Assembly (NCBI GenBank): GCA_024653485.1
Contig: JANLFY010000006.1
Location: 1 to 64,000, forward strand
Direction of reading: 5' to 3'
Length of the DNA stretch: 64,000 bases
Source of the DNA: Bacillota bacterium
Lineage (GTDB): Bacteria; Bacillota; SHA-98; UBA4971
Position 1 is the stretch's first letter; the number at the start of each line of letters is the position of its first letter. The position numbers and the translations under genes were made by a program. Shown here one piece after another: positions 1-17,441 of this stretch. The notes under the pieces were generated by a model. That model made no database searches. It worked only from the letters and a program-made list of their open reading frames with translations, and was not told the DNA's origin.

Positions 1-85
1 CCCGTCATTACTGCACTTCAGCCCCTTTGTGTGCCCAGGCCTTGTCGAACTCGGGGAGTATGTGGTCGTCGTATGCCAATGCCCC

Positions 86-209
86 ATGTCAGAATTAAGC
101 CTGGCGAAACAAACAGAACACTTCTTGGGGGCGCTCGCGGTATCGTCCTTACAGCCGATGGAGTGAGTGAGGGTCTTGAATGATACGATACAGCCGCCAA
201 TTCTGACAT
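86..209. repeat. 124-bp segment bounded by an 11-bp inverted repeat
   Basis: ATGTCAGAATT at 86-96 recurs as its exact reverse complement at 199-209, so the segment has the form of a very small element with terminal inverted repeats. The right copy is also the loop and part of the stem of the hairpin at 191-218. There is no transposase and no obvious target duplication. It could be an IS or MITE remnant, or chance. Confidence 0.25.
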
Positions 210-218
210 TGGCGGCTG
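191..218 (-). terminator. Hairpin downstream of the TRAP/oxidoreductase operon
   Basis: CAGCCGCCAA (191-200) pairs perfectly with TTGGCGGCTG (209-218) across an 8-nt loop. It sits about 80 bp past the last stop codon of the leftward operon, the right place for a terminator. There is no run of T on either side, so a Rho-independent role is uncertain. Confidence 0.35.
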
Positions 219-300
219 TGCCCGGCTGCATTCCTGACTGATCCAAGGCAAGAACAGTCCCCTGTTCCTTCATGTCGGAGACAACGTAAGAACAGAACTC

Positions 301-1749
301 TCAATGTGTGCCAAAGAGTATGGCACCCTGCTGCTGCAGTATTCTTTGGAGTTCCGAAACGTCCTTTTCCAGTTCTCTAGGTGTGATGCCTTGCTTCGCA
401 CATAGGACCGCAGCCACCCCAGCCGCTTGGCCGGTGACCATCGTTTGCTGCAGGAACCTATGATAAGCGTCCCGATCAGTCGAGATCATCTTGCCTGCCA
501 CCAGAAGACTCTCCACTCTCTTCGGAACCAGACACCTGTATGGGATGTCATGGGAGCCCCCGTCTTTCGGCATTACCGCGTTGGTTGCTATGGTCTCTGT
601 GCCGACGACATGGTGTCCGCCAGCAGGAAAGCCGCTCTTTCCTATGACATCAGGGAATTTCCTCGCTTCGGCCACGTCTTGAGTGGTCAGAACGTAGTCG
701 CAGATTATCCTTCTGCCTTCGCGGATCCTGAGCTCCGGGCAGATCCTGGTAATGTACGCGTCTTGGAAACCAGGAACGTATTTCTTGAAGCATTTGAAGG
801 CCATCTGAATCTGTCTTCGTGCCTCGATCTCACAATAGGTCAAGTCCCACGCATCATCGGGGCTCCGACCGGCAACATGCGAGGAATGCTGGAAATGGGC
901 GAGTATCCTCCTATTCTTGTCATCACCTTTCGGCATGATGAAGAATCCCATGCCGCTGAAGCCATGCCATTCCTTCCTGGCAAGCGCTTCTCTCAAGATG
1001 GAGAAGAAACCCCTAATCTCTCCCAGGTCGACTATGTTGTCGGCTCTCCTCAGGATCTCATACATCTCCTCGCGTGACCGTCCGGGGACGTCACATCCAT
1101 AGAACTCCTCAGGATTGGCCCGCACGTAATCCAGGAACTCCTCCCAATCAACTCCGTCGCACGTAAAGGACAGAGTGTGCGGCTGCAGCTGCTCTCTGGG
1201 GACCACTTCCCAAGGCGCTCCAGCTCTAGAAGCAACATACCCCTCACCTGTACAGTCAATGACCACCTTGCCCATGATCTCCACCCGACCGTTAGGGTTC
1301 TCCACGGCCACTCCGGTAACCTTGTTGCCTTCTTGGAGGACATCAACGACAAGTGAGTGAAGGAGCAAGGTCACGCCACTCTCTGTCATCATGTCAAAGA
1401 TCAACAGCCCCCACCAATCGGGGTCGACATACGAAAACGTGTAACCGGACCCTTCCCTGTATTCGCTGTGGTTATGGGGCAGTGCGTGGCCTTCCTCAAG
1501 CAACCGCTTGTGTGTCTCCTCGACGATCCCGCCGATGATTTGCTCGCCTCGCTGGTTGAACAACCATGCGTAGGCGAATCCTGGGGGACCGGATACGTTC
1601 ATCTGACCGCCCAAAGCGCCGAGCCGCTCGATCAGGAGCGTATCTGCACCAGCTCTTGCCGAAGATATGGCTGCCGCCACGCCCGACGTGCCGCCACCGC
1701 AGACGATTACATCGAACTTCTTGTCATGCCTAATTGTCTCGTAAGCCAC
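301..1749 (-). CDS. FAD-dependent oxidoreductase (FAD_oxidored family)
   Basis: This is a 482-residue cytosolic flavoprotein with no signal peptide. The N-terminus has the dinucleotide-binding fingerprint (GGGTSG, residues 18-23) followed by a helix and an acidic end (LLIER). The C-terminal part carries the family's second signature, VESLLVAGKMIS followed by GQAAGVAA, as in fumarate-reductase/FAD_oxidored proteins that oxidise small organic substrates. The start is GTG at 1749, preceded by AAGGAGGG at about 10 nt. It is the last gene of the leftward TRAP-transporter operon, 45 bp after the DUF554 gene, so it probably oxidises the imported compound or a derivative. The substrate is unknown. 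The family assignment is firm; the role is inferred from context. Confidence 0.85.
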   Translation of the reverse strand: MAYETIRHDKKFDVIVCGGGTSGVAAAISSARAGADTLLIERLGALGGQMNVSGPPGFAYAWLFNQRGEQIIGGIVEETHKRLLEEGHALPHNHSEYREGSGYTFSYVDPDWWGLLIFDMMTESGVTLLLHSLVVDVLQEGNKVTGVAVENPNGRVEIMGKVVIDCTGEGYVASRAGAPWEVVPREQLQPHTLSFTCDGVDWEEFLDYVRANPEEFYGCDVPGRSREEMYEILRRADNIVDLGEIRGFFSILREALARKEWHGFSGMGFFIMPKGDDKNRRILAHFQHSSHVAGRSPDDAWDLTYCEIEARRQIQMAFKCFKKYVPGFQDAYITRICPELRIREGRRIICDYVLTTQDVAEARKFPDVIGKSGFPAGGHHVVGTETIATNAVMPKDGGSHDIPYRCLVPKRVESLLVAGKMISTDRDAYHRFLQQTMVTGQAAGVAAVLCAKQGITPRELEKDVSELQRILQQQGAILFGTH

Positions 1750-1794: not shown

Positions 1795-2496
1795 TCAGAA
1801 GACGAGCGTCCACAGGTACGAAAGCGGCATCAAGAGCGGAATCACAGGGATCGTGTTGGCAACAGGGACTCGCTTGAGCCCCATCATCCGGATTCCGACC
1901 AATAGAGTGATGATGCCGCCGCCGCCGACGAAATCCGCAATCATCACCTCGCTGATGTGAGGTAGTATGATGGAAGCGAGCGAGAAGAAAACGACACCGA
2001 CGACCAACGTGGGAATGCTGAGGAGTACAATCAGGTAGCCGGCAGTCGTCGCGAAGATCATCGCCGTGAAGAAGTCGAGAATCGACTTGATGACTAGAAG
2101 TGTCGTATCTCCCGTCATTCCCTCGTAGAGAGCGCCGATGATACAGCCAGCGTTAGCGCTGAATAGCACCAGAAGCGTAACGAAATCCTCGACAGCCTTC
2201 TCATCTAACCTGGTAGCTCCCGACTGCAGTCTCCTTTGCAGCCTCATCGAGATGGTATTGAGATAGTCTTCGATACCTAAACGCTCACCGACCGCAGTCC
2301 CCAGAATCAACGCCAATACGACTGGCTCGATGTTGATAACCTTCACGATCAGGGTAATCCCAAGGGCCAGAGCGCAGGTTGCAAAGATCACCGGCAGTGT
2401 GACCTTGATCCTTTCTGGAATCCGATTATGGCCACACGCTCCGATCAAGCCTCCGAAAACAATCGCCGTGCAATCCACAAGCACCCCGACAGGCAT
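1795..2496 (-). CDS. DUF554 family membrane protein
   Basis: A 233-residue polytopic membrane protein of the DUF554 (YdfK-like) family. It has about seven hydrophobic segments, a conserved small-residue N-terminus (AIVFGGLIGACG) and the GTAVGERLGIE segment typical of the family. The start is ATG at 2496, after AGAGGACTGACGA. The gene follows dctM by about 90 bp on the same strand and precedes the oxidoreductase. The family's biochemical function is not established to my knowledge. Its presence in a transporter operon fits a small-molecule permease or an accessory membrane role, which is inference only. Confidence 0.85.
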   Translation of the reverse strand: MPVGVLVDCTAIVFGGLIGACGHNRIPERIKVTLPVIFATCALALGITLIVKVINIEPVVLALILGTAVGERLGIEDYLNTISMRLQRRLQSGATRLDEKAVEDFVTLLVLFSANAGCIIGALYEGMTGDTTLLVIKSILDFFTAMIFATTAGYLIVLLSIPTLVVGVVFFSLASIILPHISEVMIADFVGGGGIITLLVGIRMMGLKRVPVANTIPVIPLLMPLSYLWTLVF

Positions 2497-2585: not shown

Positions 2586-3881
2586 CTAGCGCAGCAGAAT
2601 TCTAGGCAGCCAAGTGACTAGTCCGGGAAACACGATCGCGAGGATCACGGTAAGGACCATTGCGGGTAGGTATCTTACAGCTTCCTTCGTTACATCCTTC
2701 ACGGGCAAGTCATTCACGTTAGCGACTACGAAGAGACACAGGCCAAAAGGTGGAGTTATCGCACCTATGATTAGAGCAATGATCATGACAATGGAGAAGT
2801 GTATTGGGTCGACTCCCAAGGCAGTTACCGCGGGCAGGACAATCGGGGTCACCAGCAGCGCCGCGGATCCTGTGTCAATGAAACAGCCGATGATCAGGAA
2901 CACTACGGTGCAAATGAGGAACATCAGGATCTGACTTTCTCCAGCTACTGCCCTTAACATTGCTTGAAGAGCTTGCGGGAGCCCTTCGAACGTGACGATC
3001 CAGGCGAAGAAACTCGCGACCGACATGATTAACATGAATACCCCTGCCGCGCGGACAGTGTCATCAAGCGTCTCCCACAGGCTCTTCCACGTTAATTTCT
3101 TGTAGCATATTCCCAGAATGATGGACCACCACACTGCAAGAACTGCCGCTTCCGTGGGTGTGCAGACTCCGCCGCTAATAGCGCCTATTATGATGACAAA
3201 CGTGAGCAACGGAGGAATCGCTTCCGGGATAGTCTTGATGGCTTCGCGCCAAGGAATCCTGGTCTTCGGCCATGTCTTGCCTTCTGTGGTGAAATGAGCT
3301 CGGAATGCGACCAATCCCATGAGCGCTAAGCCGAGTATGACCCCGGGAAGGATACCTCCATAGAATAGGGCCGCTACTGAGATCTGCGCAATGGAGCCCA
3401 CAAGTATCATGATGCTGCTCGGCGGTATAATCGGCCCCAAGATGCTCGACGCTGCTGTGATACCGGCAGAAAAGTCCGCCTTGTACCCGGCCTTCTTCAT
3501 CATAGTCATCTCTACAAGACCAAGACCGCCGGCATCGGCGACAGCATTGCCTGACATCGACGCAAACAACATGCTAGCTAGAGCGTTCGCGTGAGCAAGG
3601 CCACCGCGGAAACGTCCAACCATCGCCACGGAAAAGCGAAACAGCCGATCGGTGACTCCTGTTGTGTTCATCATCCGTCCAACAAATAGAAACCCCGGCA
3701 TCGCGATAAGTGTGAATGACAGCAACTGACTCATCATGCTCTGAGCAGCTACGGTGACCGGGATGCCGGGGTTCATCGCCACCAGCCAGACCAACGTAGC
3801 AAAGCCAAGCGAGAAGACCACGGGGACTCCTACCAGCATCAAGACCAGAAAGATGACGAACATGATGATTATGCTTGCCAT
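2586..3881 (-). CDS. dctM: TRAP transporter large permease (DctM)
   Basis: This is the twelve-or-so-helix large membrane subunit of a tripartite ATP-independent periplasmic (TRAP) transporter, which uses the ion gradient to import organic acids or sugar acids delivered by a binding protein. The protein is about 431 residues, close to the usual 425-430. Family signatures include LGPIIPPSSIMILVG and AITPPFGLCLFV. I start it at ATG 3881 (MASIIIMFVIF), with a GGGGGG ribosome site 8 nt upstream, rather than at the upstream ATG that adds 19 polar residues. It follows dctQ and dctP in the same direction. Confidence 0.93.
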   Translation of the reverse strand: MASIIIMFVIFLVLMLVGVPVVFSLGFATLVWLVAMNPGIPVTVAAQSMMSQLLSFTLIAMPGFLFVGRMMNTTGVTDRLFRFSVAMVGRFRGGLAHANALASMLFASMSGNAVADAGGLGLVEMTMMKKAGYKADFSAGITAASSILGPIIPPSSIMILVGSIAQISVAALFYGGILPGVILGLALMGLVAFRAHFTTEGKTWPKTRIPWREAIKTIPEAIPPLLTFVIIIGAISGGVCTPTEAAVLAVWWSIILGICYKKLTWKSLWETLDDTVRAAGVFMLIMSVASFFAWIVTFEGLPQALQAMLRAVAGESQILMFLICTVVFLIIGCFIDTGSAALLVTPIVLPAVTALGVDPIHFSIVMIIALIIGAITPPFGLCLFVVANVNDLPVKDVTKEAVRYLPAMVLTVILAIVFPGLVTWLPRILLR

Positions 3882-4003: not shown

Positions 4004-4525
4004 CTACCCTACCGACAAGTCCCTCTCCCGTGTCAGCTTCACGACGGTGTCACGACCAGGAAAGATCTCGTTAAGGATATCGACGAGCACCGCGAAGATC
4101 ATGACAACGCACATGGAGAAGAGCGGCCAGTAGAATAGATTCCTGGGGATCCCGAGGGCAGCTGTCCTGTACACTATCTTCGGTAACAGCATGTGATACG
4201 AGCTGACGCAGATTAGTGTGAAGACAGCAACCGCTAGTACCTTACTCACAAACGACACTGCACGTTTGAACCTTGGCGACGCGTTGCTTATGAGAAAGTC
4301 CGCTACGACGTGCTTCTTCTCGATGGTCACCACTGCCCCGCTTACATAGCCGAGACTAACCATCAACAGAGTAGAGATCTCTTCTGTCCACGTAAAGGGG
4401 TTGCGGAACACGTACCGGCTGACGATGCCGGCGGTTATTACCAGCAGTATCGCCGCGAGGATAAGGTTCCCGACGATCCTGAGCACCTTGTTGCAGTAAT
4501 ACACGGCGTAATTCAGGGCACTCAT
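4004..4525 (-). CDS. dctQ: TRAP transporter small permease (DctQ)
   Basis: A 173-residue four-helix membrane subunit of the same TRAP transporter. The recognisable DctQ segment is SRYVFRNPFTWTEEISTLL (roughly residues 36-54), including the conserved WTEE. The start is ATG at 4525, with AGAGGAGAG upstream. It lies between the binding-protein gene and dctM, the standard order P-Q-M. It scaffolds the large subunit and docks the binding protein. Confidence 0.92.
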   Translation of the reverse strand: MSALNYAVYYCNKVLRIVGNLILAAILLVITAGIVSRYVFRNPFTWTEEISTLLMVSLGYVSGAVVTIEKKHVVADFLISNASPRFKRAVSFVSKVLAVAVFTLICVSSYHMLLPKIVYRTAALGIPRNLFYWPLFSMCVVMIFAVLVDILNEIFPGRDTVVKLTRERDLSVG

Positions 4526-4595: not shown

Positions 4596-5642
4596 CTACT
4601 TGGCTAGTTGCTGTAACACGGCCAAGTACTTGTCGAACACTCCCTTTGACCATTTCCCGGCCTTCTCGAAGTCGTAGGCAGCCTTCCTTGCGGCAGCAGC
4701 GAACTTTGCGAGTTCCTCTTGGGGGTACTCAATGACTGTGACCCCGCTCGCAGCCATTTTGTCGATATAGCTCTTGAGCTGCTGATCAACAGCCTGTGAG
4801 TACCAAACACCGACTTCCTGACAGGTCTTGAGCAGGATCTCGCGCTGAGCAGGGGATAGAGATTGGAACTTTCTTTCGTTCATCCAGATGGCGAAATTGA
4901 CGTAGCTAAGATCCAGCTTGAGGACGTACTTCGCTACTTGGTAGAAGTTCATGGTGTAGATGGTATCAAAGGTAGCCACCGCCGCATTGATGATCCCTTG
5001 TTGCAGGGCCAGATAGACTTCGTCGTACGCGACCGCAGTCGGGTTCATACCCATTGCCTTGAAAGTTGCCAGCGAATACTCAGAGGGGATCGAGCGTACT
5101 TTGAGATTCTTGAAATCCTCAAACCTGTATAGTGGGACCTTCGAAACGAGTTCTGCCGGTGGCCTTATCCAGTTGCTTGCCAGGGTCCTGACTCCAGCGG
5201 TTCTCAAGAACTCATCTTCCCAGGCCTTGTAGAAATCGCTTTGAACGAACTTGGCAAATATGTCTTTGCTTGGGCACTGACCCATGAAACTGGTAACAGC
5301 ACTGTCCGGAACGCCCCAGTCAGCCATGTAATGAGCGCCCTCAGTGAACATGTCTATGTTGCCGTTGATCACCATTTCCATCTGCGTCATTGCCGTGCCT
5401 AGCTGAGAAGCAGGGAAGAAATTGATCTTCAGGGACCCGCCGGTTCTCTCTTCGACGAGTTTGGTCACCCTTCGCATCGCCTCTGACGCCAGGTCTTCCG
5501 AGGGAGCCGTGCAGCCCCACCTGAGGGTGACCTTAGGGTCCTTGGAAGCATCAGGGAAAGTCTGTTCTGAGAAGCCCGAGCCCGCACAGAGAGCAACTGC
5601 CGCCGCCAACAACAACAGCACCATCAGCCCTTTCCCTTTCAT
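4596..5642 (-). CDS. dctP: TRAP transporter substrate-binding protein (DctP)
   Basis: A 348-residue extracellular binding protein of the DctP family that captures the substrate for the DctQM permease. It has a signal peptide (MKGKGLMVLLLLAAAVALC) and the family's central region (SIPSEYSLATFKAMGMNPT, then AVAYDEVYLALQQGIINA). The start is ATG at 5642 because AAGGAGGG lies 6-7 nt upstream; a longer reading adds about 74 implausible residues before the signal peptide. The ligand cannot be predicted; most characterised DctP proteins bind carboxylates. It is preceded by the UGSC-like gene with a 181-bp gap. Confidence 0.92.
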   Translation of the reverse strand: MKGKGLMVLLLLAAAVALCAGSGFSEQTFPDASKDPKVTLRWGCTAPSEDLASEAMRRVTKLVEERTGGSLKINFFPASQLGTAMTQMEMVINGNIDMFTEGAHYMADWGVPDSAVTSFMGQCPSKDIFAKFVQSDFYKAWEDEFLRTAGVRTLASNWIRPPAELVSKVPLYRFEDFKNLKVRSIPSEYSLATFKAMGMNPTAVAYDEVYLALQQGIINAAVATFDTIYTMNFYQVAKYVLKLDLSYVNFAIWMNERKFQSLSPAQREILLKTCQEVGVWYSQAVDQQLKSYIDKMAASGVTVIEYPQEELAKFAAAARKAAYDFEKAGKWSKGVFDKYLAVLQQLAK

Positions 5643-5823: not shown

Positions 5824-7539
5824 CTATCTCTTGAACTCCTCAATGCTTCTGGCCCTCTTGCCATTCGGAAGACAGATAGGTTCCACGATGCCCTCGCTGT
5901 GCAGTGCCCACGGGAGAATCACACCGGAGTGGCCACCCCTGCCGCCCACGACCACGACTTCTACATCCTTCGGACTGCGTGTTACGGGCATCGGGTGCCT
6001 ATCCTTGAATTCGGGAGGACGCACGGGCACGAGACCCCTGTTACGGACCATCGGAACCTCGTGGTAAGCGTATGTGTGTATGTGCTCCTGGATCATCTCC
6101 TTCGTGTAGCCGGCTTTCTTGAGCATCATGCCGTGGTCGGGCGTCAGGCACACCACCAAGGGGCCAGGGATGTAGGCGTTGTTTGAGCCAAGTGTGGTAC
6201 AGCAATGCGTGATTGTGTCCAGCAGATCATGTCCGTCCAGACTCAAGAAGTCGATGATGTCGTGTAGGGGCTCGGCCTTGAGCACGTACACCGTAGTGGT
6301 TTCCGAGTCGAAATGGTCTTCATTGATCATGTTCCACTGCGCAAGCTCGGGTTCCTCTGCGAAACAGTAGGTAAACTCTGCCTGCGAAGCAAGACAGTCC
6401 AGATCACAGATACCCGGAACGGCACGACAGACATTCATTATTACCAGGTTGACAGCGCGTCCGATCGTCGCGTTCATCGGCCAGCCAGGCCCCAAACAAC
6501 CCTGTCTGCCTGAAATGCCGATCTCCTGCGCGATAGGTCCGCTGACCAACACCAGGTTTCCGCCCGGATGAGAGGTCGTGACGGATTGGAGCAGATTATA
6601 CTTCGGATTGTTCATCGCCTTGAACGCAGTCACCAACACAGGCATCGCTTTGGGAGTACATCCGGCCATGACAGCGGCCACCGCAACATCCTTCACTGTA
6701 ATGTCTTTGCCGGTAGGGCCAACCTGGTTGCAGAGGACCATGTCCTCGTCAAAAGGGCAATAACTCATCATTCTCTCGTATCGTGCTCGTGTGGGAGGGA
6801 TGATCGGAAGACCATCGCTCATGTGTTCGTCGTTGAAATACTCGTTGATCTCCTCCATGTAGCAACCAGGTTCCAGCAACTTGTCATCGTCAACCGCGAT
6901 CCTCTCAGTAATCGGCAACAGGCCGTCCTTGGCTGGGGGGACTCTGTCCATCTTGAAATCGATGTGAGCTAGTTTGGCAAGCTCCTCTCCGGTAGCAGTG
7001 AGAGACCCAATTATGTAATCCCACTTCAGGTCGACCTGCTCCCTTACCTCTTCTTCGGTACTAGCCTGATAGACGTCCACCGGGCACAGGCAGAGATTGC
7101 CCGCTCGGTACACGCCCACCCCTTCGGCGATAGCCGATCCCGGAGGCGCTGTCATATACACCGTGGGGATACCCAGCTTCTCCAATGCAATTGCCACAAC
7201 TGTTGTAGCTGCAGACGTACCCATATCTCCAAAGGCTACAATGGCCGCGGTCGGCTTTTCCTTCGCCAGCATCGCCGCATAATCTTCCAGCTTATCAGTA
7301 TCCTTACCACGAACGGTTTCTCTATAATCAACGAAGTTCGTGATCCCCAGTTCGGCCAGGCGTTCCTTGATCCTTACGAATACTTGGTTGTAGTTGCAGA
7401 AAGACAGCTTCGTGTTGTCGTAAAACAGTATCTTGCCTTTTCTCAAAGCCTCAATGGTAGCTCTAGGCGCCAGTTCAATGACCGGCCGCTCCTGATAGCC
7501 GCGCGGGTCCAGCAGTGGGTTGAGTTTCCTATGACTCAT
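5824..7539 (-). CDS. Two-domain protein with degenerate UGSC-like N-terminal domain
   Basis: A 571-residue protein. The N-terminal ~150 residues have the layout of UGSC-family (seleno)proteins: LLDPRGY and LAPR near the start, a Rossmann-like core, then GD-x-G-x-S at residues 104-109 followed by LEKLGIPTV. The family's redox motif (U/C)-G-S-C is replaced here by MGTSA, so the reactive Sec/Cys pair is missing. The remaining ~400 residues contain DGLPIIPPT, AAVMAGCTPKAMPV and GRQGCLGPGWPMNATIG, which I recognise only as the domain often joined to or beside UGSC proteins. The start is ATG 7539 (GGAGAGGAAG upstream). It is the first gene of the leftward TRAP operon, facing lysR. Its reaction is unknown. 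The family call is from memory of the motif, not a search. Confidence 0.7.
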   Translation of the reverse strand: MSHRKLNPLLDPRGYQERPVIELAPRATIEALRKGKILFYDNTKLSFCNYNQVFVRIKERLAELGITNFVDYRETVRGKDTDKLEDYAAMLAKEKPTAAIVAFGDMGTSAATTVVAIALEKLGIPTVYMTAPPGSAIAEGVGVYRAGNLCLCPVDVYQASTEEEVREQVDLKWDYIIGSLTATGEELAKLAHIDFKMDRVPPAKDGLLPITERIAVDDDKLLEPGCYMEEINEYFNDEHMSDGLPIIPPTRARYERMMSYCPFDEDMVLCNQVGPTGKDITVKDVAVAAVMAGCTPKAMPVLVTAFKAMNNPKYNLLQSVTTSHPGGNLVLVSGPIAQEIGISGRQGCLGPGWPMNATIGRAVNLVIMNVCRAVPGICDLDCLASQAEFTYCFAEEPELAQWNMINEDHFDSETTTVYVLKAEPLHDIIDFLSLDGHDLLDTITHCCTTLGSNNAYIPGPLVVCLTPDHGMMLKKAGYTKEMIQEHIHTYAYHEVPMVRNRGLVPVRPPEFKDRHPMPVTRSPKDVEVVVVGGRGGHSGVILPWALHSEGIVEPICLPNGKRARSIEEFKR

Positions 7540-8097
7540 GCCACGTCTTCCTCTCCTCGACTGATTACCTTGAGTCAGCAAGCTTGCACTCTTAGTGTAA
7601 GTGCTTAGCTGCGGAAAGATCAATTCTGAGTTGGCATGGGATCCATTCCATTCAGTCCAGACATGGTGCGCCACTGTTTCTCATGATGTTCCTGACTCAA
7701 CCATGTCGCTAGTGACGCGTGCGAATCCGTGTCGCGGGGCTTGTGCGTGGCGCCCGCTTCCGCCCTCCAGTGGCGGGCCGCAACATGCACGGCTGTTATG
7801 CACTCTTCGCGAGCTCGTTCGCTGCGCGAGGGCTCCTTAACAGAAACGTCGACTTCTCTTCTCATATCCCGAGGTGCAGCAAGAGCCACCGACCGTTCCG
7901 GTGCCCCGACAACGTCTAGGCTTCTCCAGAACTCATCTTCATTGCCAGCTAGCGATAAGAAGGAGGTGATAGGCGGCTCTCGAAACTAGAGATCGAGTCC
8001 TCCAAGGCAAACGTGTTACGACTCCGGGTCGGGAGCATGTCTGAGCCACCTCTGGGAGAGTCCCGTGAACGGTGAAAGCGAAGGGAGGGTCAACGGA
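7540..8097. promoter_or_regulatory. Divergent promoter region between TRAP operon and lysR
   Basis: The 558 bp between two divergently transcribed genes must hold the operon promoter and, by the usual LysR arrangement, the regulator's binding sites. I see the small palindrome CACTCTTAGTG (7588-7598) and the octamer TTGAGTCA at 7570-7577 repeated inverted as TGACTCAA at 7693-7700. No clean -35/-10 pair stands out. A good ribosome site (AAGGAGGTGATAG near 7970) leads only to a seven-codon reading frame. No longer gene is convincing. Confidence 0.4.
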
Positions 8098-9015
8098 GTG
8101 AGGTTGGATCACTTGCGGTGTTTTGAAGCTGTGAAGAACCACCAGTGTTTTTCCGTAGCCGCTGAGAATCTATACATGTCGCAGTCAGCACTCTCAAAAC
8201 AGCTAAAGGCCCTCGAAAACGAGCTAGGGGCGGTCCTCTTCAGCCGTAAGCACGCGGCGGTTCACTTGACTCCGGTCGGGGAAAGGATCTGTATCTATGT
8301 TGAGACCATTCTAGATGCGTACGACAAGATGGTTCAGGAAGTAAAGGACTACACTGCCAGCGAGAACAGGAAACTCAGGGTTGCCTCCTTTTACGACATG
8401 GCACAATATGGAGTTACCAATCTGATCATCGGCTTTGAACGAGAACAGGCCGACTTTCACGTAGAATCCAGGGAGTGCGACCACACGAAGATGCTTCACC
8501 TGCTCGACGACAGAGAAACTGACATAGTCATCGGTTATCGAGAGTTCTGGCCACAGCAGCTGGATTACTACGTGGTGCCCCTGAGAAGAGATGAGCTAGT
8601 GCTTGTTGTACACGAGAGCCACCGCCTCGCGCCAAAGAGCTCGATTTCATTGAGCGATGTCAGGCATGAGAAGTTCTGCTTCCCGAGGGAAGATGGGGCC
8701 CTATTCAAGCTCTTCTATGACGCCTGCATGGCGGCCGGTTTCGTTCCCAAGCTCACATTGTCCGATGTCCGGCTGGGGACCATCAAACAGTACATACGTG
8801 CAGGTATGCGCGTTACACTACAAACACGCATCCGCGCGGCCAACGTATTCTACGAGCCGGATTTCCGCCTGATCGACATACAGGAGACTCCTCTGCTCAC
8901 GGTGACGATTCTGACCAACAAGAACCTCTTGTCAAGACTTGGCTGGGAGTTCATTCAGTACGCGTATGGGTTCTACAATAACATGGCTCAAGCTGGCATT
9001 GGAGTTACTCAATGA
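8098..9015 (+). CDS. LysR family transcriptional regulator
   Basis: A 305-residue LysR-type regulator. The N-terminal winged helix-turn-helix (residues ~1-60) reads LDHLRCFEAV, then AAENLYMSQSALSKQLK and LENELGAVLFSR. A periplasmic-binding-like effector domain follows. I start it at GTG 8098, with GGGAGGG about 8 nt upstream and the standard LysR N-terminus; an upstream GTG at 8065 would add 11 residues. It is transcribed divergently from the UGSC-TRAP-oxidoreductase operon and very probably controls it in response to the transported compound or a metabolite. This regulatory link is inferred from arrangement. Confidence 0.93.
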   Translation: MRLDHLRCFEAVKNHQCFSVAAENLYMSQSALSKQLKALENELGAVLFSRKHAAVHLTPVGERICIYVETILDAYDKMVQEVKDYTASENRKLRVASFYDMAQYGVTNLIIGFEREQADFHVESRECDHTKMLHLLDDRETDIVIGYREFWPQQLDYYVVPLRRDELVLVVHESHRLAPKSSISLSDVRHEKFCFPREDGALFKLFYDACMAAGFVPKLTLSDVRLGTIKQYIRAGMRVTLQTRIRAANVFYEPDFRLIDIQETPLLTVTILTNKNLLSRLGWEFIQYAYGFYNNMAQAGIGVTQ

Positions 9016-9071: not shown

Positions 9072-11054
9072 TCACGGCAGCACCGCTGACGACGCCATCG
9101 CCGAAGACGAGCGAAGCCATTCCAGCACGGGGTCGCGTCCCTCTCGAATGTCCCGGACGGTCGTCGGAATGGGAATGTCCGGGTAGAGCGCGTCCGCCGG
9201 GTCGAAGGCGGGGTCGGGCCTGACGAACGACGTGGTAGAAACCGAGAAACGCCAACCGGTATTAGGCATGGCGAAACCAAGTATGTCGCCGTATTCCGTA
9301 GGCGAGCCACCCGTCGGGGCTCCGACCACCTTCGCCAGGCGGTTGTCCCGCAGAATCGCCGCGAAGTCCACAGCTGAGCTGAAAGAGAGCCACGAAGTCA
9401 GGACGTACACTTCCCCTCGAAAGAGCTCGTCCGCGGCGGCCCGGGGCTGGAGCGGATAGGGCAGCCACCGTCCGTTGAAGAAAGTCTCGCCCATCCACGT
9501 AAGCAAGCGAAGCCAAGGACCTCGCTGCTTGGCAAGTTGCGGCGAGTAGCGTGTGGCACGGGACGGAGCGCGCAGGTCTCCATACTCATATGGCAAGTAC
9601 TTGAGAAACGCGCCCACCACCATGGAATCTCCGCCGGCGTTGCGTCGCAGGTCGATGGCGATCCTTTCGACTCCATCCTTTCGCGCCGCGGAGAAGAACT
9701 CGTCCACTGCCCTGCGGTAACTCCTCGTGTTGTTGCATTCGTCCAGCCAAAACAGGCCGCACCGACCGGAGTGATCGATTGCCCAGCCGAACCACGGCCG
9801 TTCCTTTTCTCCGGACGTCGGCGCGCCGCCGAGCACCACTCCAATGACATACGCCGTCTCCGCGGCCCCGGTGGAACCGGCGTCCTGTGCAGACCTTGGC
9901 ATTGGGCGCACGCTCAACTCAAGCCTCTCTCCCTGGCGCAGGACTTCCAGCACAAGTGTCCGCCCTTCTCGACCGGCTCTCTGAACCGCGCGAGCGAGGT
10001 CGTCCGCCGAGCGTACAGCGGCCCCGTCCGCAGCGAGCACCCTGTCGCCGGGCTTCACGCCTGCTTCAGCCGCCGGCGACCGAGTGCCGCCGGTTGCCGC
10101 GTCGGGGCCAGACACGGTCCCTGTGACCGTGAGCTCGTCCCACATGGGGATCTTCGCAGCAAGCACTCTGCTCGCGCCGGCCGCATCCTCCGGGCGTCGG
10201 ACCACCATCTCAACCGTCTCTTCGACCGTCTCTTCACGCCCGGACGTCCTGTCGACTTCCCGTTCCGGTTCCCCTTCCTCTGATCCTTGCCTGGACACCA
10301 ACCCCAGGCCCTTCAGGACCAGCGGGTTCGCCAGGTACCGGCCGCCGAGAGCCTTCACCCAACAGAGGTTTGCATGGGGAACCCAGGCGCAAAGGTCCTC
10401 AAGCAACCGCTCGGGCGTGCGGCCGCCGAGGCTGATGAGTTCGTCGCCGGGCTGCACGGGAAGATCCGGGTCGAGAACTCCGCTCACCACGACCCCGTCG
10501 TCGGCCCACGTCAGCTGCACGGGTAGCGTCCCGGTGAACTCTGGCAGCCGCAGGGAGGTGTGGGCGTCCCGCAAGGAGGCCAGAACCTCGTTGACCAGGG
10601 CAAAGAAGCGCCAGGCCGGCAAGGGCTCGCTCAATTCGGCTTTGGCGGCATCTACCCGCGCCGCGAACTCTTGCATTGCGGAGCGGCTCTCTGGGGACCG
10701 GCCTGCCATCGCGGGATGGACCTGCCGTATCGTTGAGCTCAGATACTCAAGGTCTTCCAGCATGTCTTCCGGCTCGAGCAGCATCTCTACGCCCCAGGCC
10801 TGGGAACGCACTTCGTCCTGGGAACGCGCTTCGTTCGAATCCCGGAGGTCTGACCCGTTTGTGACCGCTCTCGCTCTGGTGACCGCTCTCGCTGCCGCGC
10901 CGAATTCACCTGACGGCCGCACGGCGAGCCCCGCCACCACCGATACGGCAACGGATAATACCAAGAGCGCCGTGACTGTGTTCCTTCGCACTCTCGTTTG
11001 CCCATTCCGGCCGCCGCGGGTGTGGTATCTCCGCTCAAGTCGGAAGTGTGCCAT
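9072..11054 (-). CDS. Exported S41-family peptidase with PDZ domain
   Basis: About 660 residues. An N-terminal membrane anchor or signal segment (TVTALLVLSVAVSVVAGLAV) is followed by a linker, a helical S41 N-terminal region (AMAGRSPESRSAMQEF), a PDZ-like segment, a second clear PDZ domain (AGVKPGDRVLAADGAAV ... VLEVLRQGERLEL) and a C-terminal tail-specific-protease domain. The latter includes IAIDLRRNAGGDS, the catalytic-serine region LTSWLSFSSAVDFAA and GAPTGGSPTEYGD. The PDZ part resembles that of the sporulation protease SpoIVB, but the catalytic domain is S41, not S55. The start is ATG 11054 with TAGGAG upstream. It probably acts outside the membrane; its target is unknown. It is convergent with lysR. 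Confidence 0.82.
   Translation of the reverse strand: MAHFRLERRYHTRGGRNGQTRVRRNTVTALLVLSVAVSVVAGLAVRPSGEFGAAARAVTRARAVTNGSDLRDSNEARSQDEVRSQAWGVEMLLEPEDMLEDLEYLSSTIRQVHPAMAGRSPESRSAMQEFAARVDAAKAELSEPLPAWRFFALVNEVLASLRDAHTSLRLPEFTGTLPVQLTWADDGVVVSGVLDPDLPVQPGDELISLGGRTPERLLEDLCAWVPHANLCWVKALGGRYLANPLVLKGLGLVSRQGSEEGEPEREVDRTSGREETVEETVEMVVRRPEDAAGASRVLAAKIPMWDELTVTGTVSGPDAATGGTRSPAAEAGVKPGDRVLAADGAAVRSADDLARAVQRAGREGRTLVLEVLRQGERLELSVRPMPRSAQDAGSTGAAETAYVIGVVLGGAPTSGEKERPWFGWAIDHSGRCGLFWLDECNNTRSYRRAVDEFFSAARKDGVERIAIDLRRNAGGDSMVVGAFLKYLPYEYGDLRAPSRATRYSPQLAKQRGPWLRLLTWMGETFFNGRWLPYPLQPRAAADELFRGEVYVLTSWLSFSSAVDFAAILRDNRLAKVVGAPTGGSPTEYGDILGFAMPNTGWRFSVSTTSFVRPDPAFDPADALYPDIPIPTTVRDIREGRDPVLEWLRSSSAMASSAVLP
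10799..10896 (-). repeat. Two 18-bp tandem duplications in the protease linker
   Basis: Positions 10799-10816 and 10817-10834 are tandem 18-mers (CCTGGGAACGCRCTTCGT) differing at one base. Positions 10861-10878 and 10879-10896 are a second tandem pair (GTGACCGCTCTCGCTSYS). Both keep the reading frame and lengthen the low-complexity linker after the membrane segment, giving repeated RSQ and RAVT units. Confidence 0.7.
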
Positions 11055-11062
11055 CACTGCTC

Positions 11063-12111: not shown

Positions 12112-13773
12112 CTAAGTGCCGAGCACGGGCGACAGCGTCACGAGCAGCGACGGGCCTGACCCGTTCGCGTGGCCCAACGCTTCACTCGGCGGCGCCTCTC
12201 TCACCACCACGACGCTCAAGAGTTCGATGAGCCTGTCAACGGTGGTCCGGGGCACGCGGGTCGAAGTGTAGATGCCCGTGTACCTCCTCACGTCCCGCAC
12301 CCGTCCCCCGCCGTCGGTCGGCCCGGCCGCCTCTGCCGTTTCGGCGCCGTCGATCGCGCCTGCGCGGAACGTGAGGTTCGTTGCGGGACTCGCCCCCGCG
12401 CCCACCCTCGAAGGTCCAGTGAGCCACTCAGCGTAACTTGCGAAGTAGCGGTCTAGAAACGCTCGCACGAGCTGGTCGCGGGCGGTCGCGCCGTCGGGGC
12501 TGTTGTACACGACGAAGATGCCCACGTCATGGGACGGTATCAGGCGTAGCTCCGAATGAAAGAGGAACGTGTCCCCGCCGTGCCCGATGGTCCTCAGGCT
12601 GCCGTATGGTTGTTCGAGAAAGCCGTGGGCGATTCCACCAAGGTCGGGGTCCTGGATGAAGCTCGTTGTGTGCATCGCGCGAGCCGTCTTGGGCCTCAGG
12701 ATCTGCGTCCGGCTGTCCTCGGGCCTTTCAGCCCTCAGGTGTGAGATCATGAACTTCGCCATGTCCACGGCTGTGGCGCTGACAGCGCCTGCGGGAGCGG
12801 CGGGCAGGTATTCGAAGAGCCCAGGCTCGAAGCGTGCCGAGGCCGGCGAGTACTCGTACCCGACGGCCAATCGCGTCTGGAGATGCGGCGGGACGGGCTG
12901 GCGGGGGGTGGTGTGGTCCATGCGGAGGGGTTTGAGGATGTTTTCCTCAATGTAGGTGGCCCATGGCATCCCGCTGACGCGCTCGACGACGTATCCCGCG
13001 AGCGCAGCTCCGTAGTTTGAGTAAGCGGTGACCTCCCCAGGCGGCCGAACCCGCCGGGGCAAGGTGGCGGCGAGCACCTCGCCGAGGGGCAGGACGCTCT
13101 CGGGATCTCGGTTGAACAGGCCTACGTTCCGGTCTTCGAAACCCGCCGTATGGTTCATTAGGTGAGCCATGGTTATCGGCTCTGGATACGTCGCGGGCAC
13201 GCGGAAGCCGCCGCCCTTCAGGTAGGCGTTGACGTCCTCGTCCATGTCGAGCGCTCCCCGCTCGACCAGCTGCATCACGGCGGTCCACGTGAATAGCTTC
13301 GAGACCGAGCCTATCCGAAAGAGAGTCTGCGCTGCATCCACGGGTGTCCGCGTTTCCAGGTTCGCGTAGCCGTACCCTTTGGCGAAGAGTATCTCCCCAT
13401 CTTTGACCACGGCAACAGCTGCGCCCGGGATGTGGTACGCTTGAAAGTGGGCGGCCATGACTCCATCGAAGAACGCCTCGAGTTCCGCGGGGGTGAGGAG
13501 GCGGTCCACCGAAGCATCCAGGTCCTCCTGGTCCGGCGCTGCCGGTGCTGCCGCCGCTGCCTGCGCGGTCGGTACGACCGACGTGACAGGCGCGACAGGC
13601 GCAGCCGCCGCGGCCGGCGCAGCCGCCGTGGCCGCGCAGTAAGGTGTGAGCGCACACAGCGCGGTCAACGCCGTCAATACGACGGTCAACGCGACGAGCT
13701 TCACGAGCTTCGCGCGCGGGTCGGCCGAAGGACCGGGCCCGCGCGCAACCGTACCGAACACTCCGAATCTCAC
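12112..13773 (-). CDS. Beta-lactamase-family serine hydrolase, cut by an in-frame TAG
   Basis: A 553-residue product of a class C beta-lactamase/penicillin-binding-protein-like hydrolase. It has a signal segment (residues ~22-50), an Ala/Pro-rich linker, and then the catalytic domain: the Ser-x-x-Lys motif is SVSK in FRIGSVSKLFTW, the Tyr motif is YSNYG, and the third motif is HGGDTF. Members act on D-amino-acid peptides, esters or cell-wall peptides; the substrate here is unknown. The start is GTG 13773 (GGGGGAGATGG upstream). The frame ends at TAG 12112-12114, but homologous sequence continues in the same frame to 11503, so the protein is shortened by its C-terminal membrane region. The catalytic part is complete. 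Confidence 0.82.
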   Translation of the reverse strand: MRFGVFGTVARGPGPSADPRAKLVKLVALTVVLTALTALCALTPYCAATAAAPAAAAAPVAPVTSVVPTAQAAAAAPAAPDQEDLDASVDRLLTPAELEAFFDGVMAAHFQAYHIPGAAVAVVKDGEILFAKGYGYANLETRTPVDAAQTLFRIGSVSKLFTWTAVMQLVERGALDMDEDVNAYLKGGGFRVPATYPEPITMAHLMNHTAGFEDRNVGLFNRDPESVLPLGEVLAATLPRRVRPPGEVTAYSNYGAALAGYVVERVSGMPWATYIEENILKPLRMDHTTPRQPVPPHLQTRLAVGYEYSPASARFEPGLFEYLPAAPAGAVSATAVDMAKFMISHLRAERPEDSRTQILRPKTARAMHTTSFIQDPDLGGIAHGFLEQPYGSLRTIGHGGDTFLFHSELRLIPSHDVGIFVVYNSPDGATARDQLVRAFLDRYFASYAEWLTGPSRVGAGASPATNLTFRAGAIDGAETAEAAGPTDGGGRVRDVRRYTGIYTSTRVPRTTVDRLIELLSVVVVREAPPSEALGHANGSGPSLLVTLSPVLGT

Positions 13774-14203: not shown

Positions 14204-16270
14204 ATGGCTGGACGGCTTGCGGGCAGAAGGCTTTGTAGAGTCTCGGGCGGACTGGTGTCGCCCGCACTGTGTGTTCTTGCGGTCGCAGCGGTTGTCGTGA
14301 CACACGCCGCAGCGATCGGAGGGCTTTCGGGGCTCGCGGACGCCTCACCGGCATCTGAAAGTGCCGCCCTGCACGAGCAGGCCATCCGGCAGGTCGTCGC
14401 GGACCTGTACCGGGCAATGACGCTGAAGGACATCGACCTGATGCTGTCGCTTTTCGTTCAGCGCGACTCACGAGAGGACGAGGATCCGAAGACTGTGAGG
14501 GCCCAGATACTGACAGAGCTTGAGCCGGTGGTAGCCATTGCGGGGGACTTCACAAGAGCTAGCCTCGTTCTCGGCGATGGAGTCGCGGTTGTGCGTCTCC
14601 CCGAGGTCATGACGGTGAAGGACCCACGTTCCGGGGCATACAAGGACGTGCGCGCGAACGCTGAATTGAGATTAGCGCTGACGCGGTCCGGGTGGAGAAT
14701 CGAGTCGAAGCGCGCTCTGCCGCCAGATACCGCAGGGAGCCAGGCCTCTGAGATAGGAGGGCGGGCACCTGACACCACACGAACAATCCTTGTCGCGGTG
14801 GAGCCCGTGAACGTCGATCGCTCTGGTGACGGGGACGCCATTGAGGCTTCGATCGCTGATGCCGCGACGAGCCCCGCGGCGCCGCCTGTTGCGGCGCCTC
14901 TCGACGCCACGATCACTGTCGACGCGTTGCACCCAGGCCACGTCATCAGCCCTTACGTCTATGGGAGTGCCTGGGGACAATGGGTCGGCAAACTCCCCCC
15001 TGACGATGAGATCTCCGACCTTCGCGTCAAGCTCATAAGGTTCGGGGGTAACAACATAAGCCGCTACAACTGGAGGATTGACACGTACAACGACTGGTGG
15101 ACGAAGAGAAACGTAGTCCAAAGGCCCGGGCTCCTCGAGTTCGTGACCTGGGCGCGCAGCCACGGCGCGGAGCCGCTCATCCAGGTTAACGCCTTCGGGT
15201 TCGCCCCAGCGGAGACCGCGTCCACCGAGATGGTGAGGATAATGGATGCCGAGGCGGCCGCGGACTTGGTGCGGTTCCTCAACATCCAGCACGGGCTCAA
15301 AGTCAGGTTCTTCGAAATAGACAACGAGCCGTTCATCTGGCACGAGACGCACCGCGACTACCAGAAGCGGCCTATCGGATACGACGAGTACCTCGAGCGA
15401 TTCGCGGAGTTTTCCCGAGCCATGAAGGCAGTGGATCCCTCCATCATCGTCATGGGCCCCGCCAACTGCAACCCCACGTATTACGTTCGGAGCGCGGTCG
15501 CGGCCGACCGCGTCCTCAAGGGCGATTGGATCCCGTACATGCTGAGGTACTGTGCGGAGTATGAAGGTCGTCACGGCCTCAGAATCCTCGACGCGGTGTC
15601 TTTCCATCGCTACCCGATCTATAGGTCCTTCAACGCGAAGGAGGTCCACACGAATCCGCAGGACATCCTGGACGCGACACGAGAGTGGTGGGACCCATCT
15701 TACAACCCAAGCCTCATCGACCCTACGTCCGAGTCGGCTGTCCGGGGCATCCTTCCACTCTTCGGGCGTTGGATCGACCAGAACTACCCCGGCACCGGTC
15801 TGGCCTTGACCGAGTATAACCTTGACTTCGACAGCTCCGTAGAATATCCACCTGGAGTGCGAGCGCTCTGGCTTGCAGAGACGATCGGCCAACTCGCCCG
15901 CCACGACGTGAGGTACGGTGTGTACTGGAACCTTCAGGAAGGGGCTGAGCACGGCCTTGTGGGAATGGACGGGCGCCCCTCTGAGGCCTATTACGCCTTC
16001 AGGTTGTATTCTCGCAATTTGACCGGCAGGATGCTGCCGGTCAAGGGCGAGCGCGAACGGGTTCATGCATTCGCCGCCCTGCGCGATGACGGCACGATAG
16101 CCGTCCTCCTAAACACTCTTGACCTCGCGCAAGGCCACGACGTCGAGGTGGTGATCTCGGAGGTCTCCGGCCCGAGAAGGGTGCGCCTATCGCTCCAGCC
16201 GGGCTCGGTCGCGGCCCTTACCGTCGTCCCAGGGCATGGTCCGGCGACCGCAGAGGTCTTCGACCCCTGA
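14204..16270 (+). CDS. Secreted GH44-like glycoside hydrolase with NTF2-like N-terminal domain
   Basis: A 688-residue protein with a signal segment (LVSPALCVLAVAAVVVTHAA). A ~110-residue NTF2/SnoaL-like domain follows (VVADLYRAMTLKDIDLMLSLF), then a linker and a (beta/alpha)8 hydrolase. The hydrolase shows RFGGNNISRYNWRIDTYNDW and EIDNEPFIWHETH (acid Glu375), and LTEYNLDF (nucleophile Glu537). The RxGGN-x4-RYNW and DNEP-x-W-x2-TH patterns match GH44 endoglucanase/xyloglucanase proteins as I know them. GH39/GH51-like arabinofuranosidases are the alternative. The start is ATG 14204 with ATGAGGAG upstream. Likely action is extracellular beta-glucan or hemicellulose cleavage. The pairing with an NTF2-like domain is unusual. 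Confidence 0.75.
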   Translation: MAGRLAGRRLCRVSGGLVSPALCVLAVAAVVVTHAAAIGGLSGLADASPASESAALHEQAIRQVVADLYRAMTLKDIDLMLSLFVQRDSREDEDPKTVRAQILTELEPVVAIAGDFTRASLVLGDGVAVVRLPEVMTVKDPRSGAYKDVRANAELRLALTRSGWRIESKRALPPDTAGSQASEIGGRAPDTTRTILVAVEPVNVDRSGDGDAIEASIADAATSPAAPPVAAPLDATITVDALHPGHVISPYVYGSAWGQWVGKLPPDDEISDLRVKLIRFGGNNISRYNWRIDTYNDWWTKRNVVQRPGLLEFVTWARSHGAEPLIQVNAFGFAPAETASTEMVRIMDAEAAADLVRFLNIQHGLKVRFFEIDNEPFIWHETHRDYQKRPIGYDEYLERFAEFSRAMKAVDPSIIVMGPANCNPTYYVRSAVAADRVLKGDWIPYMLRYCAEYEGRHGLRILDAVSFHRYPIYRSFNAKEVHTNPQDILDATREWWDPSYNPSLIDPTSESAVRGILPLFGRWIDQNYPGTGLALTEYNLDFDSSVEYPPGVRALWLAETIGQLARHDVRYGVYWNLQEGAEHGLVGMDGRPSEAYYAFRLYSRNLTGRMLPVKGERERVHAFAALRDDGTIAVLLNTLDLAQGHDVEVVISEVSGPRRVRLSLQPGSVAALTVVPGHGPATAEVFDP

Positions 16271-16907: not shown

Positions 16908-17441
16908 ATGAAGCTCAAGGGATCCAAAACCGAGGCGAACCTCAGGGCCGCTTTCAACGGCGAGTCGCAGGCCAGGAACAAGTACACGTTCTTCGCGTCT
17001 GTCGCCCGCAAAGAGGGGTACGAGCAAATCGCCGCGATCTTCGAGGAAACCGCGGAGAACGAGAAAGAGCACGCAAAGCTTTGGGCGAAGGCTCTTGGAA
17101 TGATCTCGGACACCTCCGCCAACCTCGAAGAAGCCGCGAGCGGTGAGAACTACGAGTGGACCACTATGTACCGGGAGTTCGCCGAGACCGCGCGCGAGGA
17201 GGGATTCGAGGATCTCGCCAGAGCCTTCCAGGAAGTCGCCGAGGTCGAAGAAGCCCACGAGAAGCGTTACCGTGCCCTTCTGGAGCGCGTGCACAGCGGG
17301 ACTGTCTTCCGTCGCGACCGTCCGATCAAGTGGCACTGCCGCAACTGCGGGTACATTCACGAAGGCACCGAGCCTCCGGAGGTGTGTCCGGCTTGCGCTC
17401 ATCCGAGGGCGTTCTATGAGCCCCTCGCGGAGAACTACTGA
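16908..17441 (+). CDS. Rubrerythrin
   Basis: A 177-residue rubrerythrin, a peroxide-reducing di-iron protein of anaerobes. The N-terminal four-helix bundle has two Glu/His iron-binding repeats ([12 protein letters not shown] near residue 46 and [13 protein letters not shown] near 120). The C-terminal rubredoxin-like domain has CRNCGY and CPACAHP for Fe(Cys)4. The start is ATG 16908 with GGAGGTGG 8 nt upstream. It is a single gene followed by a strong hairpin, so it is probably monocistronic. The sequence shows no PerR-type operator that I can identify with confidence. Confidence 0.96.

Follow-up and report, generated by a model that had tools for sequence, protein, structure and literature searches.

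UGSC proteins and the PrdB/GrdB selenoproteins

UGSC proteins constitute a large family of selenoproteins. They have been described as Sec or Cys proteins, and as UxxC or UGSC selenoproteins with a likely thioredoxin-like fold (PMC2398784, PMC13188914). A "UGSC/Unknown_1 fusion" was noted in 2008 in the GOS selenoproteome (PMC2398784). In PrdB and GrdB, the selenolate is thought to attack a carbon of the substrate, giving a selenoether (review PMC10298544). Sec and Cys forms of UGSC and the fusion of UGSC to an unnamed domain are therefore already known (PMC2398784); what is new here is a branch of the family with Met at the Sec/Cys position, which is unmentioned in the literature found, itself a partial coverage of the field.

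The gene and its operon

The window, that is, the whole stretch of 64,000 nucleotides analyzed here, carries a gene of this branch at 5824-7539. The earlier note had reported a UGSC-like gene in this interval, and the gene is indeed there, but it runs on the minus strand, from 7539 to 5824; on the plus strand the interval contains stops. The features of the locus are as follows.

5824..7539, minus strand: UGSC-family two-domain protein, Met variant, 571 aa; ATG at 7539, stop codon 5824-5826; 41 close homologues
6925..7515, minus strand: N-terminal UGSC domain (PF24696, 34 bits; hhalign), residues ~9-205; homologue of the PrdB/GrdB Sec domain
7213..7230, minus strand: GDMGTS motif, residues 104-109, in 44/44 members of the Met clade
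7222-7224, minus strand: codon of Met106; relatives have Sec (TGA) or Cys there
5827..6876, minus strand: C-terminal domain, residues 222-571, a separate gene in many Chloroflexota; without Pfam family or PDB match
6658..6660, minus strand: Cys294 (MAGC-TP; AGCTPK of the earlier note), ancestral, Cys in 44/64 non-Met relatives
6496..6498, minus strand: Cys348 (RQGCLG), 42/42 in the Met clade, 6/64 elsewhere
6199..6204, minus strand: Cys446-Cys447, invariant in the Met clade, 2/64 and 1/50 elsewhere
4596..5642, minus strand: TRAP solute-binding protein DctP (PF03480, 185 bits); start 5642 inferred, ORF extends to 5864
4004..4525, minus strand: TRAP small permease DctQ (PF04290)
2586..3881, minus strand: TRAP large permease DctM (PF06808, TIGR00786); start 3881 inferred, ORF extends to 3938
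1795..2496, minus strand: DUF554 membrane protein (PF04474)
301..1749, minus strand: FAD-dependent oxidoreductase, constant genomic partner of the Met clade (PF12831, 313 bits)
8065..9015, plus strand: LysR-type regulator, divergent (PF00126/PF03466)

The minus-strand run starts with the Met-form UGSC gene and continues with DctP, DctQ, DctM, DUF554 and the FAD oxidoreductase, immediately past which the contig ends (window 1-300). Two close relatives (L040 and G895) carry a second, tandem FAD oxidoreductase at the position matching window 1-300, so the operon in the window may be cut. The divergent LysR gene was also considered as a regulator of selenium metabolism, which its score rules out (92 bits against a cut-off of 250). 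Farther along the window, Pfam assigns a PDZ plus S41 peptidase to 9072-11057, and 12112-13773, 14204-16270 and 16908-17441 were read by eye as a beta-lactamase-like serine hydrolase, a glycosidase-like protein and a rubrerythrin-like protein, respectively.

Homology to UGSC, PrdB and GrdB

Residues 9-169 of the window protein match the UGSC family PF24696 with 34 bits (gathering score 25, E 4e-8), which bears out the relation to UGSC proposed from reading the sequence; a divergent clade member (L047) stays just under the cut-off with 22.2 bits. The protein lies outside the equivalog NF041046 (UGSC_fam), where it scores 22.7 bits against a cut-off of 125, and two-domain relatives of the Cys type also stay below that cut-off (68.5 and 38.3 bits).

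Profile-profile alignment by hhalign extends the relationship to the Sec domain of GrdB/PrdB (PF07355). The profile of Sec/Cys UGSC proteins matches both PrdB (97.4%, E 1.6e-11) and GrdB (97.1%, E 7.4e-11) with Sec on Sec, and the Met-clade profile reaches PrdB by itself (86%, E 5.6e-6). In genome searches the Met-clade profile also retrieved, from many Bacillota genomes, single-TGA ORFs of ~245 and ~440 aa, and these are PrdB (AGUGTCHRSA) and GrdB (STUGTCTRCG), as confirmed by Pfam GRDB; one GrdB-like minus-frame ORF of ~456 aa with an in-frame TGA (L080) reads UGTSTRCG, with Ser and not Cys after UGT. The window protein itself is not a GrdB or PrdB proper: it has no GRDB Pfam match, its motif is free of Sec and Cys, and its C-terminal domain is unrelated to PrdA. 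Kinship of that domain with PrdA, a pyruvoyl subunit, was tried as a candidate and discarded at an hhalign probability of 0.1-0.2%.

Methionine fixed at the Sec/Cys position

The earlier note had placed MGTSA at residues ~106-110 as the equivalent of (U/C)GSC, and this reading is exact: residues 104-109 are GDMGTS, and the equivalent of (U/C)GSC is M106-G-T-S. When the Met-clade profile is aligned with that of Sec/Cys UGSC proteins (hhalign, 98.8%, E 4.8e-17), Met106 falls on the Sec/Cys column, which rules out a true motif elsewhere in the protein. Nor is the second Cys of UGSC retained: Ser109 and a one-residue deletion take its place (GDMGT-S against GDUGSC in MAFFT). The window protein thus lacks the (U/C)-G-S-C motif with Sec or Cys that marks UGSC proteins, and its gene is without the in-frame TGA of a selenoprotein, in a genome that shows no SelA or SelB above the cut-off.

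Close homologues (n = 41, 69-87% identity) come from one scan of GTDB genomes, and further ones from the phylum search. Their hosts are mostly Lachnospiraceae, Oscillospiraceae and other anaerobic Bacillota, together with one MAG of Treponema (Spirochaetota) and one of Chloroflexota; cultured anaerobes with the Met form include Lactonifactor, Schaedlerella, Sporobacter, Marasmitruncus and Blautia, and the contigs examined cover Lactonifactor longoviformis and Schaedlerella arabinosiphila. All 44 clade members in which the region is complete have GDMGTS, and the window protein is accordingly classed as a variant by homology, outside the UGSC selenoproteins and thiol enzymes. The other aligned N-terminal domains (n = 75) have Sec, Cys or, once, Thr. 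At the motif Met all 44 genes use ATG, whereas all synonyms are in use in the flanking codons. Against the window gene, pN of the clade members is 0.07-0.20 and pS 0.69-0.98, indicating purifying selection at near saturation of synonymous sites. Since all 44 have kept GDMGTS in spite of free synonymous codons, near-saturated pS and low pN, the motif is held by selection and not by chance.

The Met forms occupy one side of one branch in the tree of the C-terminal domain, and are monophyletic with an SH-aLRT of 100. The stem of the clade is long (1.39 changes per site), its crown very shallow and nearly frozen. The rows nearest to it are split, two-gene forms, a placement with a weak support of 81. 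Because Met is three base changes away from TGA, and likewise from TGC or TGT, intermediates were probably passed on the way. The motif was lost at least once more, independently: a two-domain UGSC paralogue in another genome (L182 in G588, frame +1, 602-aa ORF) has GDTRSG, which contains neither Sec nor Cys, and forms a tandem with a Sec paralogue.

Sec and Cys relatives and the selenium machinery

A search with the Met-clade profile through 398 genomes of the phylum yielded relatives outside the Met clade. The distant ones first resembled ORFs with the C-terminal domain only, and reading upstream revealed an in-frame TGA at the expected place (QAD[TGA]GSCT, VGD[TGA]GSCT, VGG[TGA]TACN); Cys relatives have CGLC or CGTC there. 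In the 48 nt from the motif codon, Sec genes fold better than their shuffles (mean z -0.91), in comparison with +0.22 for Met genes (Mann-Whitney p 6e-8), as expected for bacterial SECIS elements.

Many Sec relatives have the same two-domain layout, and Cys relatives share the same C-terminal domain, fused or neighboring. Matches occur in 57/350 genomes of Chloroflexota, where the two domains are often encoded by adjacent genes with the TGA in the small one. Defined as a UGSC domain followed by a C-terminal domain of ~350 aa, fused or adjacent, this module includes the window protein. Fusion had been taken as a special sign of the window protein; it is ordinary for the family, as Sec and Cys relatives carry the same domains in one gene or in adjacent genes. 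The Unknown_1 of the GOS fusion may be the C-terminal domain seen here. The PrdB/GrdB homology and the split or fused pairing with a conserved C-terminal domain suggest a role for UGSC proteins as subunits of enzymes that cleave substrates, and not as general thiol-redox proteins. Paralogues can accumulate. One locus (L078, G315:C1:368000-387500) is a cluster of five, one of them on the opposite strand: an in-frame TGA is present in four, and the fifth encodes the C-terminal domain without a UGSC domain. In one genome (G109, loci L075 and L074) a fused Met form coexists with a Sec-type UGSC gene paired with a separate C-domain gene, and with another C-domain gene that stands alone. No relatives were found in viral contigs.

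No SelA or SelB above the cut-off was found in the genome of the window, which is 98.9% complete. SelA is present in nearly all Sec-type genomes tested, the exception being G216, in which a UGSC gene (L068/L082) has an in-frame TGA (VGC[TGA]GSC) and no SelA was found; either a contig is missing or the TGA is a real stop. Among 18 Met-form genomes, six have SelA and two of these (G109 and G289) also have Sec-type paralogues, so that Met as a mere result of the loss of Sec machinery is ruled out as a general rule.

A constant flavoprotein partner

The constant partner of the Met form, which the earlier note had missed, is the FAD oxidoreductase at 301-1749. Of 44 Met loci, 42 have a homologue no more than ~6 kb away, in most cases immediately downstream and in the same orientation; at the remaining two (L009 and L033) the contig ends too early or breaks inside the operon. 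At Sec, Cys or split loci it was found in 0/37, 13 of which have a flank of <2.5 kb. Across 397 genomes (one draw), an FAD orthologue with >=50% identity is present in seven, exactly the seven with the Met form. One of these is G965, whose Met gene is a contig-end fragment adjoining the FAD gene and was seen as L050 in G216; the two are taken as the same genome because their other matches are at identical coordinates. Genome context establishes that the Met clade is the obligate companion of one type of FAD oxidoreductase, absent from Sec/Cys relatives. The enzyme has no close relative of known structure; the top PDB match, to a halogenase (E 1e-8), covers the FAD-binding part.

The Met-form gene had been said to lead a TRAP operon, and it is the first gene of the run, but the link to TRAP is incidental: TRAP genes occur at about 10/41 close homologues, and other loci have Rbs-type ABC transporters or a CitMHS carrier. 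A comparison of Met frequency in TRAP-linked homologues had been suggested; Met is universal in the clade with or without TRAP, and TRAP is thereby ruled out as a determinant of Met. The genes around the loci encode transporters of carboxylate or sugar type together with catabolic enzymes, among them UbiD/UbiX, iron alcohol dehydrogenase, aldehyde dehydrogenase, AFOR, URO-D/MtaA-like proteins, IlvD/EDD and AcnX. Met loci have the look of a module that catabolizes some organic acid and has UGSC-Met and the FAD enzyme as its fixed core. Nothing was found in the literature on a TRAP/FAD/UbiD context.

The C-terminal domain and its cysteines

A fused domain of ~400 residues had been proposed; the fused second domain is real and is smaller, at ~350 residues (222-571). 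It has no match to a Pfam family, and a PDB sequence search with the protein gave nothing below E 0.7. Two AlphaFold models have pLDDT 71 and 68, too poor for active-site reading, and the C-terminal fold is poorly modelled (68). Foldseek with the full model gave a weak resemblance to iron alcohol dehydrogenases (best E 1.3e-3, TM ~0.2), and no match with the C-domain model. No internal repeats were found in the domain. Its core is kept across the family (DGLPxxPPT, AVMAGC, VxGP, NATIGRA, AEE).

Met-clade C-terminal domains are rich in Cys, with 11.2 on average (range 9-13); the average is 3.5 in both Sec and Cys forms and 5.0 in split ones. Cys348, 382, 446 and 447, and Cys150 of the N-terminal domain, are present in 42/42 clade members and rare elsewhere, that is, they are clade-specific. 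Two cysteines had been put forward earlier as alternative active residues. Cys294 (AGCTPK) is ancestral and for this reason cannot be a replacement residue; Cys348 (GRQGCLG) is a fair candidate. The invariance of Cys alone does not prove a new thiol site: it is not significant (Fisher p 0.39 against other residues; clade-specific invariance p 0.09), given that roughly one position in two is invariant in the Met clade. The Cys excess counts as a single evolutionary event, the clade being one lineage.

What the Met form may do

At the level of sequence, the comparisons establish a two-domain protein of the UGSC/PrdB-GrdB-like superfamily, in which the predicted catalytic Sec or Cys and its partner Cys have been permanently replaced within a strongly constrained clade. 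Changed chemistry, as the earlier note had proposed from the lack of Sec or Cys at the motif, is the natural reading. A methionine thioether is not expected to attack a substrate carbon in the way of a selenoether former, nor to form a selenenylsulfide or disulfide. We give about an even chance to a Sec- and thiol-independent branch that acts on an imported organic acid and in which the redox step has moved to the flavoprotein. The two-electron step of the selenolate or thiolate in relatives would here be done by the flavoprotein; the Met protein would bind the substrate and, with its C-terminal domain, convert it without thiol chemistry, for instance by a cleavage or an elimination preceding or following the flavin step. 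At this locus the substrate would be an organic acid imported by TRAP and sensed by LysR, carboxylate being a guess from the transporters. UGSC homology, Met in all 44 members, the monophyly of the clade on its long stem, purifying selection, the FAD linkage, retention of Met in SelA-bearing genomes, the genome of the window with no SelA or SelB above the cut-off and the neighboring genes are what counts for it. Against the hand-over to flavin, the linkage could reflect two consecutive steps of a pathway, and the clade-specific thiols (Cys150, 348, 382, 446 and 447) could still do thiol chemistry. A bolder form, possible though on balance doubtful, is a selenium-to-flavin replacement, in which a PrdB/GrdB-like branch that lost its Sec/Cys center has become the obligate substrate-handling partner of the FAD enzyme in a new two-component anaerobic catabolic system.

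The same thiols are the basis of a different and rather unlikely explanation, that the reactive center was relocated within the protein, new Cys/His of the C-terminal domain (Cys348, 382, 446-447) and Cys150 of the N-terminal domain forming a thiol pair, a metal site or an Fe-S site. The Cys excess and the constancy of Cys348, 382, 446 and 447 speak for it, but these residues are no more invariant than others in a slowly evolving clade, and the excess, confined to one lineage, is a single event. Somewhat less likely still, the UGSC domain could be a scaffold or substrate-binding part and the C-terminal domain the catalyst, the Sec step being dispensable (as in a non-redox lyase, hydratase or hydrolase) and the FAD enzyme serving the next step of the pathway. 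The family-wide core of the C-terminal domain, its existence as an independent gene in Chloroflexota and the decarboxylase, dehydratase, and alcohol and aldehyde dehydrogenase genes nearby are consistent with this, whereas GDMGTS and much of the N-terminal domain are conserved like the C-terminal domain, a constraint unnecessary for a mere scaffold. The motif has lost its two catalytic residues, as in a decayed pseudoenzyme heading for loss, and yet strong purifying selection, the spread over Bacillota and the two MAGs of Spirochaetota and Chloroflexota, and the fixed partner gene make that very unlikely, and we disfavor it.

A Met-fixed clade with a constant flavoprotein partner offers a tractable, selenium-free route to the function of the two-domain module, and doubles as a natural experiment on where in the chemistry selenium is required.

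Comparison with known systems

The Met clade resembles the UGSC family in an N-terminal domain that is homologous over its full length, with a common (L/V)xPxG start and the motif at the same place; it differs in having Met for Sec/Cys, no second Cys and a constant FAD partner, whose product in the window belongs to FAD_oxidored (PF12831). With GrdB and PrdB it shares a related Sec domain, but the Sec or Cys is absent from it and the C-terminal domain gives no sign of kinship with PrdA.
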